A stretch of 34,489 nucleotides of DNA, from NCBI GenBank assembly GCA_945948915.1, contig CAMFCQ010000023.1, positions 1 through 34,489 of the forward strand, in the 5' to 3' direction. Position 1 is the stretch's first letter. Each line of letters begins with the position of its first letter. Positions 1 through 28,168 of the stretch are shown in pieces. This stretch comes from an uncultured Clostridia bacterium. Its GTDB lineage: Bacteria > Bacillota > Clostridia > Christensenellales > Aristaeellaceae. A model generated the notes under the pieces. It saw only the letters and a list, made by a program, of their open reading frames with translations, was not told where the DNA came from and did no database searches. The translations under genes were made by a program, and so were the position numbers.

Positions 1-54
1 AGCGTTACCTGACGGCCGGTTATTGCATGGCCGATTTTATTTGAGAGTAGTATT
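1..54 (+). repeat. Right end of a dispersed hairpin repeat, cut by the window edge
   Basis: The first ~54 bases are identical to 22170-22223, the right-hand end of the complete repeat at 22029-22223. They include the small inverted repeat GGCCGGTT/ATGGCC and the terminal TTTGAGAGTAGTA. The rest of this copy lies outside the window. A second terminus-like sequence (GTTTCTATTTGAAAACAGTA, 67-86) follows; it matches the reverse complement of the left terminus at 22029-22048 in 18 of 20 bases and may be a solitary end. Confidence 0.75.
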
Positions 55-96
55 AGCACTTGGCTGTTTCTATTTGAAAACAGTATGACATACAGA

Positions 97-7396: not shown

Positions 7397-7501
7397 ATGA
7401 TGGAAACGCTCAAATGGAAAGTGATTGCACTGCTGGTTCGCATGAACGTTCTGGCGGTGGTGCCGGTGAGGGCAAACAGCGGCTACGGCATGCGCCGGTA
7501 A
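7397..7501 (+). CDS. Small hydrophobic peptide ORF, function unknown
   Basis: A possible 34-residue peptide, MMETLKWKVIALLVRM followed by NVLAVVPVRANSGYGMRR. It has GGAAAGG nine bases upstream and a strong terminator directly after it, so the region looks like a real transcription unit. The N-terminus is a short amphipathic or hydrophobic helix with basic residues at the end. The helix-then-ANS arrangement is loosely reminiscent of clostridial AgrD precursors, but the Cys/Ser macrocycle and the Pro-rich tail are missing and no agrB is adjacent. It may be a degraded gene, a small membrane peptide or no gene at all. The 7270-7396 stretch in front holds no other recognised feature. Confidence 0.3.
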   Translation: MMETLKWKVIALLVRMNVLAVVPVRANSGYGMRR

Positions 7502-7530
7502 CACTGTGCAGATAGAGTGTATATGAATGG

Positions 7531-7560
7531 AAAGAGGCTCCCCGGGCGGGAGCCTCTTTT
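7531..7560 (+). terminator. Strong terminator after the barnase/barstar/small ORF unit
   Basis: A perfect 12-bp stem, AAAGAGGCTCCC with GGGAGCCTCTTT, encloses a short CGGGC-type loop and ends in TTTT. It closes the plus-strand transcription unit that begins at 6409. Confidence 0.9.
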
Positions 7561-7614
7561 GCATGTGCAGCGAAAGGTCTGCGCTCAAATCAATTCGAAC
7601 TATGCGGAAATCCT

Positions 7615-7745
7615 CGTCAGGTAACGCTTCGCTCCCTGACTGCTTTTTTGATCGCTTTGTGATGAGGGTACGTTGGGGGATGTCATCCCCCCAACCCCCT
7701 GGCCTGAGGGACGCAGTCCCTCAGACTCCCTTCTTCGCTTCGCGT
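7615..7745 (-). repeat. Dispersed modular hairpin repeat, internal copy
   Basis: In reverse orientation this copy shares the module order of the complete repeat at 22029-22223: GCGAAGCGAAGAAGG, a TGAGGGAC/GTCCCTCA hairpin, a TTGGGGGGATG/CATCCCCCAA hairpin, then AGCGATCAAA and GCAGTCAGGGAGCGAAGCG with the TTACCTGACG end. The terminal inverted repeats are not evident. It sits between the terminator at 7560 and the 3' end of ybaK, a non-coding stretch of about 200 bases. Confidence 0.8.
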
Positions 7746-7765
7746 GCTCAAAAGCCATGTGGGAA

Positions 7766-8242
7766 TCAGTCCGTCAGCTGCGCGTACGCTCCGCCTGTGA
7801 TGCGGCAAAGCTCGTCTGGCGGGAGCTCCGCCTGCGCGCCGATTTTGCCGGCGGAGACGCAGATGGTGTCAAAGAGCTGGGCGGTTTCGTCAATGAACGT
7901 GGGGAAGGCCTTCTTCATGCCGATGGGGCTGCATCCCCCGTGCACATAGCCGGTGGTCGGCAGCAGGAGCTTCTGGGGAATCATCTCCACGGACTTTTCA
8001 CCGCAGGCCTGCGCGGCGCGCTTGAGGCTGAGCGTCGCGTTCACCGGGATGACGAAGACGAAGAACTGGCGGCTCTTGCCCTGCGTGACGAGCGTCTTGA
8101 AGACGGCCTGCGGATCCTGCCCCAGCTGGCGGGCGACGGACACGCCGTCGATGCCCTGATCGGGATCGTAGTAGTGAACGCTATGGGGAACGCCTTCCCT
8201 TTCGAGAATGCGCATGACGTTGGTTTTGGCGGCATCTGCCAT
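7766..8242 (-). CDS. ybaK: YbaK/EbsC family aminoacyl-tRNA deacylase
   Basis: A 158-residue cytoplasmic protein of the YbaK/EbsC (Cys-tRNA(Pro) deacylase-like) family, which hydrolyses mischarged aminoacyl-tRNAs to protect proline decoding. Diagnostic segments are KTNVMRILEREGVPH at the N-terminus, the VFKTLV strand with its lysine, FFVFVIPVNATLSLKRAA, the MIPQKLLLPTTGYVHGGCSPIG core and the FDTICVSAGKIG strand. The start is the ATG at 8242, with AGGAAGG seven bases upstream; an upstream in-frame ATG at 8365 would add 41 unrelated residues. It is monocistronic, with a possible weak promoter whose TACAAT lies at 8277-8272. The exact tRNA specificity (Cys-tRNA(Pro) versus others) is assigned by family only. 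Confidence 0.92.
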   Translation of the reverse strand: MADAAKTNVMRILEREGVPHSVHYYDPDQGIDGVSVARQLGQDPQAVFKTLVTQGKSRQFFVFVIPVNATLSLKRAAQACGEKSVEMIPQKLLLPTTGYVHGGCSPIGMKKAFPTFIDETAQLFDTICVSAGKIGAQAELPPDELCRITGGAYAQLTD

Positions 8243-21590: not shown

Positions 21591-22028
21591 ATGTATACCG
21601 AAAAAGTGATGGATCACTTCATGCACCCGCGCAATGTCGGCGAGATCGAGAACGCCAGCGGCGTGGGCACCGTGGGCAACGCCAAGTGCGGCGACATCAT
21701 GCGCATCTATCTGGACATTGACGAGAACCAGGTCGTGCGCGACGCGAAGTTCAAGACCTTTGGCTGCGGCGCGGCGATCGCGACCAGCTCCATGGCGACG
21801 GAGCTGATCATCGGCAAGACCGTGCAGGACGCGCTGAAGGTCACCAACAAGGCGGTCATGGAGGCGCTGGACGGCCTGCCGCCGGTCAAGGTGCACTGCT
21901 CCCTGCTGGCCGAGCAGGCGGTGAACGCTGCACTGTGGGACTACGCCAAGAAGAATAACCTCACCATCGAGGGCCTCAAGCCGCCGGTTGACGACGTGGA
22001 CGAGCTCGAGGAAGAAGAGGAAGAGTAA
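21591..22028 (+). CDS. iscU: Fe-S cluster scaffold IscU/NifU
   Basis: A 145-residue scaffold on which iron and sulfide from IscS are assembled. The three ligand cysteines and the aspartate are present: Cys33 and Asp35 (KCGD), Cys59 (FGCGAAIATSS) and Cys103 (VHCSLLAE). The C-terminus ends in a long acidic tail (DVDELEEEEEE), which is a clostridial trait. It is the last gene of the isc operon. Its TAA stop codon (22026-22028) directly adjoins the terminal inverted repeat of the element at 22029-22223 and matches a TAA on the far side, so the element appears to have inserted exactly at the stop. Confidence 0.95.
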   Translation: MYTEKVMDHFMHPRNVGEIENASGVGTVGNAKCGDIMRIYLDIDENQVVRDAKFKTFGCGAAIATSSMATELIIGKTVQDALKVTNKAVMEALDGLPPVKVHCSLLAEQAVNAALWDYAKKNNLTIEGLKPPVDDVDELEEEEEE

Positions 22029-22223
22029 TACTATTCTCAAATAGAAACGAGCTATAAGCGCGAAGCGAAGAAGGGGTCTGGGGACTGGTCCCCAGGCTAG
22101 GGGTTTGGGGGATGAAATCCCCCAACGTCTCCATATCGCGAAGCGATCAAAGAAAAGCAGTCAGGGAGCGAAGCGTTACCTGACGGCCGGTTATTGCATG
22201 GCCGATTTTATTTGAGAGTAGTA
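22029..22223 (+). mobile_element. Complete 195-bp hairpin repeat with terminal inverted repeats (MITE-like)
   Basis: The ends are imperfect inverted repeats: TACTATTCTCAAATAGAAA on the left and, reversed, TACTACTCTCAAATAAAAT on the right (16 of 19 match). A TAA flanks each side (22026-22028 and 22224-22226), a possible 3-bp target duplication; TA is an alternative. Inside are stacked small hairpins: CTGGGGAC/GTCCCCAG, TTGGGGGAT/ATCCCCCAA, TCGCGAAGCGA, CAGTCAGG/CCTGACG and CGGCC/GGCCG. No ORF is present, so movement would need a transposase elsewhere. Internal modules recur at 7615-7745, 22246-22299, 25500-25592 and 28047-28168. Confidence 0.65.
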
Positions 22224-22245
22224 TAAAACGCAAACTCGCTTAAGA

Positions 22246-22300
22246 GCGCGCAAAGCAAAGAAGGAGTCTGAAGGACATTGTCCCTCAGACTCCCTTTTTT
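22246..22300. terminator. Repeat-derived hairpin terminator between iscU and guaB
   Basis: A partial copy of the dispersed repeat (GCGCGCAAAGCAAAGAAGG then a hairpin). The hairpin has GGAGTCTGA (22263-22271) paired with TCAGACTCC (22285-22293) and an inner GGAC/GTCC, followed by CTTTTTT on the plus strand. It can end isc transcription; on the minus strand, where guaB ends at 22322, the following tail is TTCTTTG, weaker. Confidence 0.7.
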
Positions 22301-22321
22301 GTTTCATTTGCTAAGCGCAGC

Positions 22322-23977: not shown

Positions 23978-24248
23978 GGCCCAAGGCCCACCTCCGGCCT
24001 CGTCCGACAAAGATTGACATTTACCAGACTTCGTCGGAAGCGGGCCCGGGCACAGCCCGGTTAGGGGTCAGCCCAACGCCGACCTCCGGCCTCGTCCGGC
24101 AAAGATTGACATTTACCAGACTTCGTCGGAAGCGGGCCCGGGCACAGCCCGGTTAGGGGTCAGCCCAACGCCGACCTCCGGCCTCGTCCGGCAAAGATTG
24201 ACATTTACCAGACTTCGTCGGAAGCGGGCCCGGGCACAGCCCGGTTAG
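23978..24248 (-). repeat. 92-bp tandem repeat, about 2.9 copies
   Basis: The anchor AAAGATTGAC recurs at 24009, 24101 and 24193, an exact 92-bp period. Complete units run 23990-24081 and 24082-24173; a third partial unit ends at 24248, so it includes the TAA stop codon of the AICAR transformylase gene. Units 2 and 3 are essentially identical; unit 1 differs at a few bases. Each unit holds the palindromes CCGGGC-ACA-GCCCGG and CTTC-GTCG-GAAG. No ORF or spacer structure. Confidence 0.9.
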
Positions 24249-25429
24249 TGGTGGAACAGACGCATGCCCGTGAAGGCCATCACCATGCCGTTCTTGTTGC
24301 ACTCGTCAATCACCGCGTCGTCGCGGATGGAGCCGCCCGGCTCGGCGATGTACTTCACGCCGGACTTGGCCGCGCGCTTGATGTTGTCGGAGAACGGGAA
24401 GAACGCGTCGGAGCCGAGCGCGACGTTCGTCTGCGCGGCCAGGAAGGCGGCCTTGTCCTCAGCAGTCAGCGGCGCGGGCTGCTCGGTGAAGTAGTTCTGC
24501 CAGATGCCCTCGGCACAGACGTCCTCTTCGTTGCCGTTGATGTAGCTGTCAATCACGTTGTCGCGGTCGGCACGGCCCATGCCCGGGCGGAACGGCAGCG
24601 CGAGCGTCTTGGGATGCTGGCGCAGGAACCAGGTGTCCGCCTTGGTGCCTGCCAGACGGGTGCAGTGGATGCGGGACTGCTGGCCCGCGCCCACGCCGAT
24701 GGCCTGACCGTCGTACGCGTAGCAGACGGAGTTGGACTGGGTGTACTTCAGGGTGATCAGCGCGACGATCAGGTCGATCTTTGCGTCCTGCGGGAGCTCC
24801 TTGTTTTCGGTGACGATGTTCTCAAGGAGCGCCTCGTCGATCCTGAAGTTGTTGCGGCCCTGCTCGAAGGTCACGCCAAAGACCTGCTTGGTCTCCTGCG
24901 CAGCCGGGACGTAGCTTTCGTCGATGGCGACGATGTTGTAGCCGCCCTTGCGCTTCTTCCTGAGGATCTCCAGCGCTTCCGGCTCGTAGCCCGGGGCGAT
25001 CACGCCGTCGCTGACCTCGCGGGCAATCAGCTTCGCGGTGGTCACGTCGCACACGTCGGAGAGCGCGACCCAGTCGCCGAAGGAGCACATGCGGTCCGTG
25101 CCGCGGGCGCGGGCATAGGCGCAGGCCAGCGGGGACTCGTCCAGGCCCGGCACGTCGTCCACAAAGCACGCCTTCTTCAGGTTCTCCGGCAGCACGCGGC
25201 CGATGGCGGCTGAGGTGGGGGAGACGTGCTTGAAGGAGGTCACGGCGCACAGGCCGGTCGCTTCCTTGAGCTCCTTGACCAGCTGCCAGGAGTTGAGCGC
25301 GTCCAGGAAGTTGATGTAGCCCGGACGGCCGTTGAGGATGGTGATGGGCAGATCGCTGCCGTCCTTCATGTAGATCTTGGCCGGCTTCTGATTCGGGTTG
25401 CAGCCGTACTTCAGTTCAAACTCTTTCAT
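24245..25429 (-). CDS. purH: Stand-alone AICAR transformylase (PurH C-terminal half)
   Basis: A 394-residue phosphoribosylaminoimidazolecarboxamide formyltransferase, the step that turns AICAR into FAICAR with 10-formyl-THF. Bacterial PurH is normally a ~510-residue fusion with an N-terminal IMP cyclohydrolase; here only the transformylase part is present, starting at MKEFELKYGCNPNQKPAKIY. The catalytic Lys-His pair is at 67-68 (SFKHVSPTSAA), and the family segments LKYTQSNSVCYA, GAGQQSRIHCTRLAG, DAFFPFSDNI and PGGSIRDDAVI follow. The missing activity is supplied by the purO-type gene immediately upstream in the operon. A repeat-rich spacer (25430-25609) separates the two. The stop codon falls inside the 92-bp tandem repeat. 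Confidence 0.93.
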   Translation of the reverse strand: MKEFELKYGCNPNQKPAKIYMKDGSDLPITILNGRPGYINFLDALNSWQLVKELKEATGLCAVTSFKHVSPTSAAIGRVLPENLKKACFVDDVPGLDESPLACAYARARGTDRMCSFGDWVALSDVCDVTTAKLIAREVSDGVIAPGYEPEALEILRKKRKGGYNIVAIDESYVPAAQETKQVFGVTFEQGRNNFRIDEALLENIVTENKELPQDAKIDLIVALITLKYTQSNSVCYAYDGQAIGVGAGQQSRIHCTRLAGTKADTWFLRQHPKTLALPFRPGMGRADRDNVIDSYINGNEEDVCAEGIWQNYFTEQPAPLTAEDKAAFLAAQTNVALGSDAFFPFSDNIKRAAKSGVKYIAEPGGSIRDDAVIDECNKNGMVMAFTGMRLFHH

Positions 25430-25499
25430 GATGATAATCTCCTTGTTCTGCGGATCAGACCCGTTTCAATCGTAGGCTGCTGCGCAGCCTGCTCTGAAA

Positions 25500-25592
25500 C
25501 TGCTTTCTTCTTGACTGATCGGGGACGTTAGGGCTGCCGCCCTAAAACCTGCTCGGGGACATTGTCCCCGAACCCCTTCTTCGCTTAGCGCG
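25500..25592 (-). repeat. Dispersed hairpin repeat inside the pur operon
   Basis: A copy of the modular repeat lying between the IMP cyclohydrolase and AICAR transformylase genes: CTGCTTTCTTCTTGACTGATCG, hairpin TTAGGGC/GCCCTAA, hairpin TCGGGGAC/GTCCCCGA and ACCCCTTCTTCGC. A further hairpin, GGCTGC/GCAGCC, lies just before it (25474-25488). Being transcribed with the operon, it would form a series of RNA stem-loops. Confidence 0.75.
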
Positions 25593-25609
25593 GGTAAAAG
25601 CATTTTTGG

Positions 25610-28046: not shown

Positions 28047-28168
28047 CGTCAGGTCACGCTTCGCTCCCTGACTGCTTTTGTCTGATCGCTTCGCGAAAGG
28101 GAACGTTGGGCTGCCGCCCAAGCCCGCTTGGGGATTTCATTCCCAAACCCCTTCTTCGCTTTGCGCGC
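28047..28168 (-). repeat. Dispersed hairpin repeat between purF and purM
   Basis: A copy of the modular repeat in the same orientation as 7615-7745: CGTCAGGTCACGCTTCGC, CCTGACTGCTTTTG, TGATCGCTTCGCGA, hairpin TTGGGC/GCCCAA, hairpin TTGGGGAT/ATTCCCAA and ACCCCTTCTTCGC. The stems differ from other copies but remain paired. It fills most of the purF-purM spacer (27971-28186). Confidence 0.8.

Follow-up and report, generated by a model that had tools for sequence, protein, structure and literature searches.

The window, the whole 34,489-nt stretch of DNA that we analysed, is contig C23 of a 2.90-Mb assembly (158 contigs, 88.7% complete) from an uncultured Clostridia bacterium. Between its genes lie four copies of a repeat, which a covariance model matches at 25523-25593, 28100-28168, 22056-22131, and 7667-7747 (E from 7e-14 to 3e-10). 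Read from the letters, the four copies follow one plan, in which a head hairpin is followed by a mini-hairpin around GCTTCGC (H2), then by the G-run hairpins H3 and H4, and finally by a fixed tail. The features are as follows.

1-52, minus strand: right end of a further MITE-1 copy, cut by the contig start
53-85, minus strand: end of a MITE-2 copy, with the TIR TACTGTTTTCAAATAGAAAC at 66-85
7590-7750, plus strand: copy 1, with decayed left flank, head A, mini-hairpin, H3, H4, and tail; intact TIRs are absent, and by eye the flank CTCAAATCAATTCGAACTATGCGGAAATCC resembles a MITE-1 end
7616-7640, plus strand: head hairpin A of copy 1, GTCAGG (7616-7621) / CCTGAC (7635-7640), then the T-rich TGCTTTTTT
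7651-7663, plus strand: mini-hairpin H2 of copy 1, ATCGC-TTT-GTGAT
7672-7695, plus strand: H3 of copy 1, GTTGGGGG (7672-7679) / CCCCC(C)AAC (7687-7695), with one C unpaired
7704-7724, plus strand: H4 of copy 1, CTGAGGGAC / GTCCCTCAG, loop GCA
7728-7744, plus strand: conserved tail of copy 1, CCCTTCTTCGCTTCGCG
22026-22028, and again at 22224-22226: target-site duplication TAA of copy 2
22029-22223, minus strand: copy 2, a complete 195-bp MITE with TIRs TACTATTCTCAAATA.. / ..TATTTGAGAGTAGTA
22246-22312: degenerate double-tailed relative, an H4-type stem with tail-like sequence on both sides (covariance model E 0.0012 on the minus strand, 0.044 on the plus strand)
25463-25593, plus strand: copy 3, with head B GTTTCA (25463-25468) / TGAAAC (25495-25500), H3 TTAGGGC/GCCCTAA (25528-25545), H4 TCGGGGAC/GTCCCCGA (25553-25571), and tail at 25574-25590
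28048-28168, plus strand: copy 4, with head A (28048-28072), H3 TTGGGC/GCCCAA (28106-28121), H4 (28128-28146), and tail at 28149-28165

The first-pass annotation had placed four copies in the window, and all of them are present, although copy 2 is on the minus strand. Some details needed correction. The first hairpin of copy 1 had been described as perfect; the hairpin exists, but in TTGGGGGATG..CATCCCCCCAA the 5 G face 6 C and leave one C unpaired; the extra base had been misplaced on the G side. In copy 4, the second hairpin (TTGGGGAT/ATTCCCAA) includes one G-T pair and so is not compensated. The linker GCAGTCAGGGAGCGAAGCG is conserved in copies 1, 2, and 4; copy 3 has a different head hairpin (GTTTCA..TGAAAC).

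By eye, H2 reads ATCGC-TTC-GCGAT or ATGGC-TTC-GCCAT in other copies. GCTTCGC/GCGAAGC is common to the head, H2, and tail modules; d(GCGAAGC) is an unusually stable DNA mini-hairpin. Also, in 22070-22131 and similar sequences, a second C-run (CCCCAAACCCC, CCCTCAGACTCCC, or CCCTTGACCC) comes after each G-run hairpin and changes with the stem type, and the opposite strand therefore carries paired G-runs with short spacers.

Read head to tail, head A of copy 1 and its T-rich TGCTTTTTT would resemble an intrinsic terminator. A simple terminator scan of 7400-7900 reported none; its loop limit was 8, and head A has a 13-nt loop. By eye, a separate terminator-like hairpin, the palindrome AAAGAGGCTCCC..GGGAGCCTCTTTT at 7531-7560, lies behind the upstream gene and just before copy 1, and the scan did not report it either.

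The TAA duplication at 22026-22028 doubles as the stop codon of the plus-strand gene that ends at 22028. The 136-base core of copy 2 is identical at 21 places in the genome, its own place included, which we read as a recent burst. At the start of the window, positions 1-53 are identical to 22172-22224. There, the MITE-1 end abuts the MITE-2 end at TTA (window 1-88), which, as judged from one side, suggests a nested insertion of MITE-1 into MITE-2. In at least seven contigs of this genome, a TIR lies within about 105 bases of the contig start, so the assembly breaks at these repeats.

Across the genome, the tail pattern has 176 matches with up to 2 mismatches (79 forward and 97 reverse), compared with 1 for a reversed control. 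The covariance model finds at least 150 copies of the family in the 2.9-Mb genome; this is a lower bound, as 150 of 1218 candidates were scored. Fetched loci have three main head types: A (GTCAGG..CCTGAC), B (GTTTCA..TGAAAC), and C (GGAATCGC..GCGATTCC). None of the three is present at 111 of 283 sites.

With up to 1 mismatch, the tail is found in the genome itself and in 17 of 28 relatives from the same genus; of 51 genomes beyond that genus, 0 have it. Three of the 17 have 1-2 matches only, which is near the reversed control (0-1 per genome). Within the genus, 14 of 29 genomes have the TIR pattern. In the class (391 genomes, with 12 candidates scored per genome and stricter filters), the covariance model matched this genome and gave one borderline match at E 0.001. 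The matches listed for the head sequence include relatives that are MAGs of uncultured Clostridia, among them one with the label Candidatus Avichristensenella. An exact 20-mer of the head also occurs in one viral contig. A Halieaceae match, also among those listed, is a single 20-mer, which we estimate to be around chance level for such a collection, so we disregarded it. A 196-base MITE query (window 22029-22224) found nothing in phages and plasmids at E 0.001.

That the family is undescribed, as had been proposed, agrees with our searches. In the window, no Rfam family matched at its gathering threshold; the matches were weak, and the best was the Clostridiales-2 RNA, to which 22091-22148 bears a weak resemblance (19 bits versus a threshold of 58.6), with a GGGG-GAAA-CCCC hairpin and CGAAG. 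A text search of the open-licence literature with two sequence strings of the family found no paper, and no description of the family or its loop module (see below) was found in the open-licence literature that we searched.

Beyond the first-pass annotation, we found that a subset of the copies are MITEs. In this genome, 43 copies have paired TIRs, and an exact 3-base flanking duplication is present in 41 of them. The three flanking bases are TNA on both sides in all 43, and the middle base is free: the 41 exact duplications are 14 TCA, 11 TAA, 9 TGA, and 7 TTA. These copies are 190-195 bp, or 286-288 bp with an extra module. In relatives, similar TIRs and TNA duplications bound elements of 86, 188, 284, 287, 288, and 333 nt, and two named MAGs have such elements of about 88, 196, and 289 nt. 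As in MITEs, this subset of copies combines TIRs with a target-site duplication, and the elements are short, transposase-free, and numerous (190-195 and 286-288 bp; at least 150 copies of the family). Because 204 of the 283 sites have no TIR match (both TIRs are present at only 54), the evidence of MITE-type mobility covers a subset only. The copies that lack TIRs may have decayed or may have spread otherwise.

Because the TIRs adjoin TNA duplications, a DDE-type transposase acting in trans would be the likely mover. If an autonomous transposase is present, its expected ends are TACTNTTYTCAAATA. With the PF01609 and PF13359 profiles, we found no autonomous partner with the same TIRs in this genome (89% complete). 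PF13359 had no hits in any of 29 genomes; the control responded in 1 of 14. PF01609 (DDE_Tnp_1) identified three IS5-type places in this genome; the ends of the IS in L176 and L178 read GGGTGTGTTTC and GAGTGTGTTTC. Where their ends are readable, the TIRs of these IS5-type elements are unlike those of the family, so we dropped the presence of an IS5 transposase beside MITE copies (L177 and L178) as evidence. At L176, L177, and L178, the IS5-type transposase is split over two frames, with GAGTGTGTTTC-like TIRs. The same IS has a family copy beside it in contig C62 and in contig C143, on opposite sides.

To describe where the elements lie, we used 283 distinct sites from this genome and related genomes (302 elements, from which 11 that lacked a G-run stem and 8 duplicates of a site were removed), with gene calls from a home-made caller based on codon usage. 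Loci from the named MAGs overlap in part with those of other relatives (the same loci at 100%), and two loci that had been grouped with this genome but come from another (L219 and L231) contributed no element. The copies are tied to gene ends: 101 sites are between convergent genes, 124 are between tandem genes, and just 2 are between divergent genes. Another 16 are inside a called gene, and the remaining 40 lack a neighbour within 600 nt. Intervals of this genome without an element are quite different (109 tandem, 12 divergent, and 9 convergent).

Between tandem genes, the tail faces the stop codon at 93 sites and the head at 31 (p = 2e-8, although the sites are not fully independent across species). 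This bias is seen in the genome itself (39:9), in the named MAGs (24:7), and in the relative G020 (13:4, p = 0.049), is unclear in G017 (11:5, p = 0.21), and is absent from the remaining relatives (6:6). For copies with both TIRs, it is 15:6 (p = 0.08). From the end of the tail to the facing stop codon, the median distance is 28 nt, and 122 of 217 distances are 40 nt or less. We considered whether heads A and B set the orientation because they are harmful inside operons as terminators. A smaller, earlier count had looked supportive (A 35:8, B 10:2, no head 18:8), but headless elements are equally biased (43:16, versus 47:13 for A or B; Fisher's exact p = 0.53), so we rejected this explanation. 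Once behind a gene, the hairpins are probably passive 3'-end structures that are tolerated or co-opted.

The first-pass annotation had also claimed that the hairpins covary. We examined 193 tail contexts and found a hairpin in 149; the other 44 were mostly copies with the loop module or chance tails, with a few decayed stems. From 118 distinct cores with both hairpins, dropping 6 odd ones and duplicates of a type left 91, which we aligned with MAFFT, and we scored the H4 helix (the tail-side hairpin) against shuffled and slid controls. Standard pairs fill 92.0% of the cells, versus 75.5% after shuffling; the presence of both hairpins was a condition for inclusion in the alignment, which inflates this percentage. 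Two-sided changes occur at 7 of 9 pairs (5.5 in shuffles), with 176 cells changed on both sides versus 5 on one side. The covariation score is 0.523, compared with 0.209 for shuffled and at most 0.080 for slid controls. For instance, one pair reads GC in 31 of the 91 sequences, UA in 25, AU in 20, CG in 14, and another combination in 1. From the same alignment, RNAalifold predicts the inner 8 pairs of H4. One measure is contrary, as H4 has fewer pair types than the shuffles (14 versus 17.6). At the outermost column pair, 57 of 90 are unpaired. Overall, the covariation of H4 exceeds both controls, in sequences from several species, which bears out the claim. H3 varies similarly (TTGGGC/GCCCAA, CTGGGC/GCCCAG, CCGGGC/GCCCGG, and TTAGGGC/GCCCTAA), but its length is too variable for a column test. 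Folding suggested a possible outer closing stem, which would be formed by the GGG before ACG and the tail; this duplex beats shuffles in 36 of 59 copies with head A, 8 of 22 with B, 11 of 15 with C, and 58 of 90 headless copies. Because the tail pattern far exceeds its reversed control and the helix covaries above its controls, the repeats in the window are not due to chance.

The stems have few G-T pairs: 5 of 719 standard pairs (0.7%), versus 35 of 665 (5.3%) in 32 tRNAs from the same genome (Fisher's exact p = 1.7e-7). This rarity fits better with maintenance or exchange at the DNA level than with ordinary RNA compensation.

Orthologous sites show how the hairpins change. A flank comparison of the 302 elements listed 36 pairs; in nine of these both members are one locus (100% identity), and another, L151 and the window, matches in coding sequence. 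We aligned ten pairs between species, and by our own reading, at least one boundary looks continuous in seven: L094/L307, L164/L277, L306/L045, L321/L182, L337+/L189+, L093/L345, and L356/L198. Throughout these seven, H4 keeps its pairing in each member, with arms that differ between the members in five cases and agree in two (L321/L182 and L093/L345). In L094/L307, whose flanks are 81-88% identical and whose head-side boundary is continuous, H4 differs by two compensated pairs (TCGGGGAC.GAT.GTCCCCGA versus CCGGGGAT.GCA.ATCCCCGG). An apex pair differs between L337 and L189 and is compensated. In L164/L277, the head, H3, H4, and linker all differ together, as if modules had been swapped. One-sided changes also exist: in L093/L345, H3 differs by such changes (L345 has a G-T where L093 has an A-T), and others are the unpaired C of copy 1 and the G-T of copy 4 in the window. 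At some shared sites, the elements are in opposite orientations (window 25573 and L111; L188 and L114), which look like independent events.

Some copies carry a folded module of 88-106 nt (about 95 nt), with core GAACTCGCATAGTCG, mostly inside a hairpin loop (noted at L053/L059, L094/L307, L359-L379, and L383). Of its 49 occurrences in the fetched loci, 38 have flanking arms with 5 or more Watson-Crick pairs between them. By eye, these arms are mostly of the H3 or H4 type, and some of their bases may belong to the module's own ends. Relative to the element, 35 modules are forward, 8 are reverse, and 2 are undecided; for the other 4, the tail is not nearby. At L094, H3 carries the module, and the orthologous L307 is without it. 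Because those loci had been fetched for the element, we searched the genome for the module core as such. With up to 3 mismatches there were 25 matches, versus 21 for a reversed control; 20 of the 25 have the recognised end, 2 have a variant end, and 3 are unrelated, while all 14 exact matches are real modules. Among the 20 with the recognised end, 19 are beside a family tail and 16 are inside a stem of at least 5 bp (11 in a stem of at least 7). Random stretches of the same loci have stems of at least 5 bp in 9% of cases and of at least 7 in 1.3%. Swapping flanks between module copies gives 58% and 29%, as the hairpin types are shared among copies.

Tentatively, the hairpins could be landing sites, with the module inserting into their loops in either orientation. 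The target would be a hairpin extruded in single-stranded or cruciform DNA, and the arms would be kept paired because folded DNA is what target recognition (and module exchange) works on. The result would be a system of nested mobile hairpins in two tiers. If this is true, the module would be an unusual mobile sequence that is aimed at DNA hairpins.

As a whole, we think that the repeats are best explained as one modular family of intergenic elements in an uncultured Clostridia genus, part of which is mobile (probability roughly 0.65). A unit has the parts named above, with at least one G-run hairpin (H3, H4) between the GCTTCGC mini-hairpin and the fixed tail; some copies have no head hairpin. 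New variants would spread when elements transpose, and also when copies recombine and exchange entire modules of hairpin plus linker. One-sided mutations would be corrected or purged because the perfect inverted repeats would matter as DNA, as a hairpin or cruciform in single-stranded DNA. Template switching from arm to arm could restore pairing without selection; it has been proposed to create and mend hairpins, with compensatory changes that need no selection (excerpts of PMC8794818). Frequent switching through the loop predicts inverted loops, which are scarce (TTTCA 37 versus TGAAA 0; CCAG 33 versus CTGG 0; the exceptions are CATCG 7/CGATG 1 and CACTG 1/CAGTG 1), so we rejected it. Fold-back copying that stops before the loop may be compatible with these counts.

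Three forces fit the matching of the arms: selection on RNA, correction or recognition at the DNA level, and exchange between copies. The scarce G-T pairs and the module-wise differences favour the last two. It is possible, but to our minds doubtful, that RNA selection keeps the stems paired, with the repeats being transcribed behind genes and ending transcription or protecting mRNA 3' ends, as has been proposed for REP, SPRITE, and other stem-loops at gene ends. The location at gene ends, the 93:31 bias of the tail towards the stop codon, and the short distances to that codon would suit such a role, as would the T-rich tract after many A and B heads. RNA folds are also more stable than shuffles (z = -2.9 and -3.5); a DNA fold gave z = -4.5 versus -2.9 for RNA, but these are opposite strands with different parameters, so the difference carries no weight. 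However, parasitic repeats are also expected to show a 3'-end bias (excerpts of PMC3049150), and by eye we saw no T-tract when reading from tail to head, onward from the stop codon. The near absence of G-T pairs argues against it as well: REPs with the GTAG tag often have G-T pairs, which is taken as a sign of RNA function in the available parts of PMC3733652. The first-pass annotation had proposed selection on, or gene conversion within, a folded DNA or RNA form. The orthologous sites make module exchange plausible, but covariation alone does not show RNA selection, because G-T intermediates are nearly absent, REPs vary likewise (PMC3733652, in part), and template switching can give compensatory changes without selection (PMC8794818, in part).

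Alternatively, nothing might maintain the stems: fixed subfamilies would have been perfect when they spread and were then inherited, the covariation would reflect subfamily ancestry, and the differences at shared sites would reflect independent insertions. The hairpin types do recur across species with their own linkers, and the 21 identical copies and the opposite orientations at some shared sites also fit. But the compensated differences, two H4 pairs in place in L094/L307 and the apex pair in L337/L189, argue against this, and copies without TIRs pair too, so we consider the absence of maintenance to be unlikely. Mobilisation as REP elements by a RAYT (Y1 tyrosine transposase) is far less probable still. 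The many short palindromes behind genes, with complementary variation of their stems, are reminiscent of REPs. Yet the genome (89% complete) has no match to Y1_Tnp (PF01797), the composite unit has TIRs and 3-bp duplications, and the 4 nt before H3 are mostly NACG (TACG 26, AACG 18, and GACG 11 of 71 copies tallied), with GTAG outside the twelve commonest. The elements provide natural replicates by the hundred, some at orthologous sites in sister species, with stems that change and pairing that stays. They therefore open to testing a long-standing question, namely where compensatory change in repeated hairpins originates: in RNA selection, in DNA-level correction such as template switching, or in the exchange of sequence among copies.

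Correia/NEMIS and ERIC MITEs have a TA target duplication, while this family has a TNA duplication and a modular interior with multiple hairpins. Like the family, they are non-coding, bear TIRs, lie near genes, and have structured transcripts (excerpts of PMC10969869). BOX from Streptococcus pneumoniae (boxA-boxB-boxC) is also similar: excerpts of PMC3049150 describe it as modular and dispersed, with over 100 copies, a TIR and target-site duplication, predicted stem-loops, and over-representation between convergent genes. Compared with BOX by description only, the family has another sequence and host, several head types, compensated G-run hairpins, TNA duplications, and the loop-inserted module. 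REP/BIME and the CGTC-tagged palindromes are also short palindromes at gene ends, with complementary stem changes between subfamilies, and no dedicated transposase is known for the CGTC class (PMC3733652, in part). The tag of our family is neither GTAG nor a 5' CGTC, G-T pairs are nearly absent, and the unit is a larger composite, with some copies transposing as a MITE. It does not fit the pattern of CGTC-tagged REPs, an unpaired CGTC 5' of an 8-9-bp stem with a CCA tail; GACG, where it precedes H3, has the opposite polarity to that tag. Finally, some IS elements insert into REP palindromes, so that a mobile sequence targets a repeated palindrome (PMC1525189, in part); the insert in our family is a folded module of ~95 nt, which is too short for a transposase gene. 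Structured, MITE-like repeats at gene ends are a known kind (parts of PMC10969869, PMC3049150, and PMC1590033), and we would file the family as a new and unusually modular member of the MITE/BOX-like modular repeats, with BOX compared by description only.

The window also contains a tandem repeat: at 23979-24254, three head-to-tail copies of a 92-bp unit lie between two genes, and the second and third copies are 97% and 93% identical to the first.
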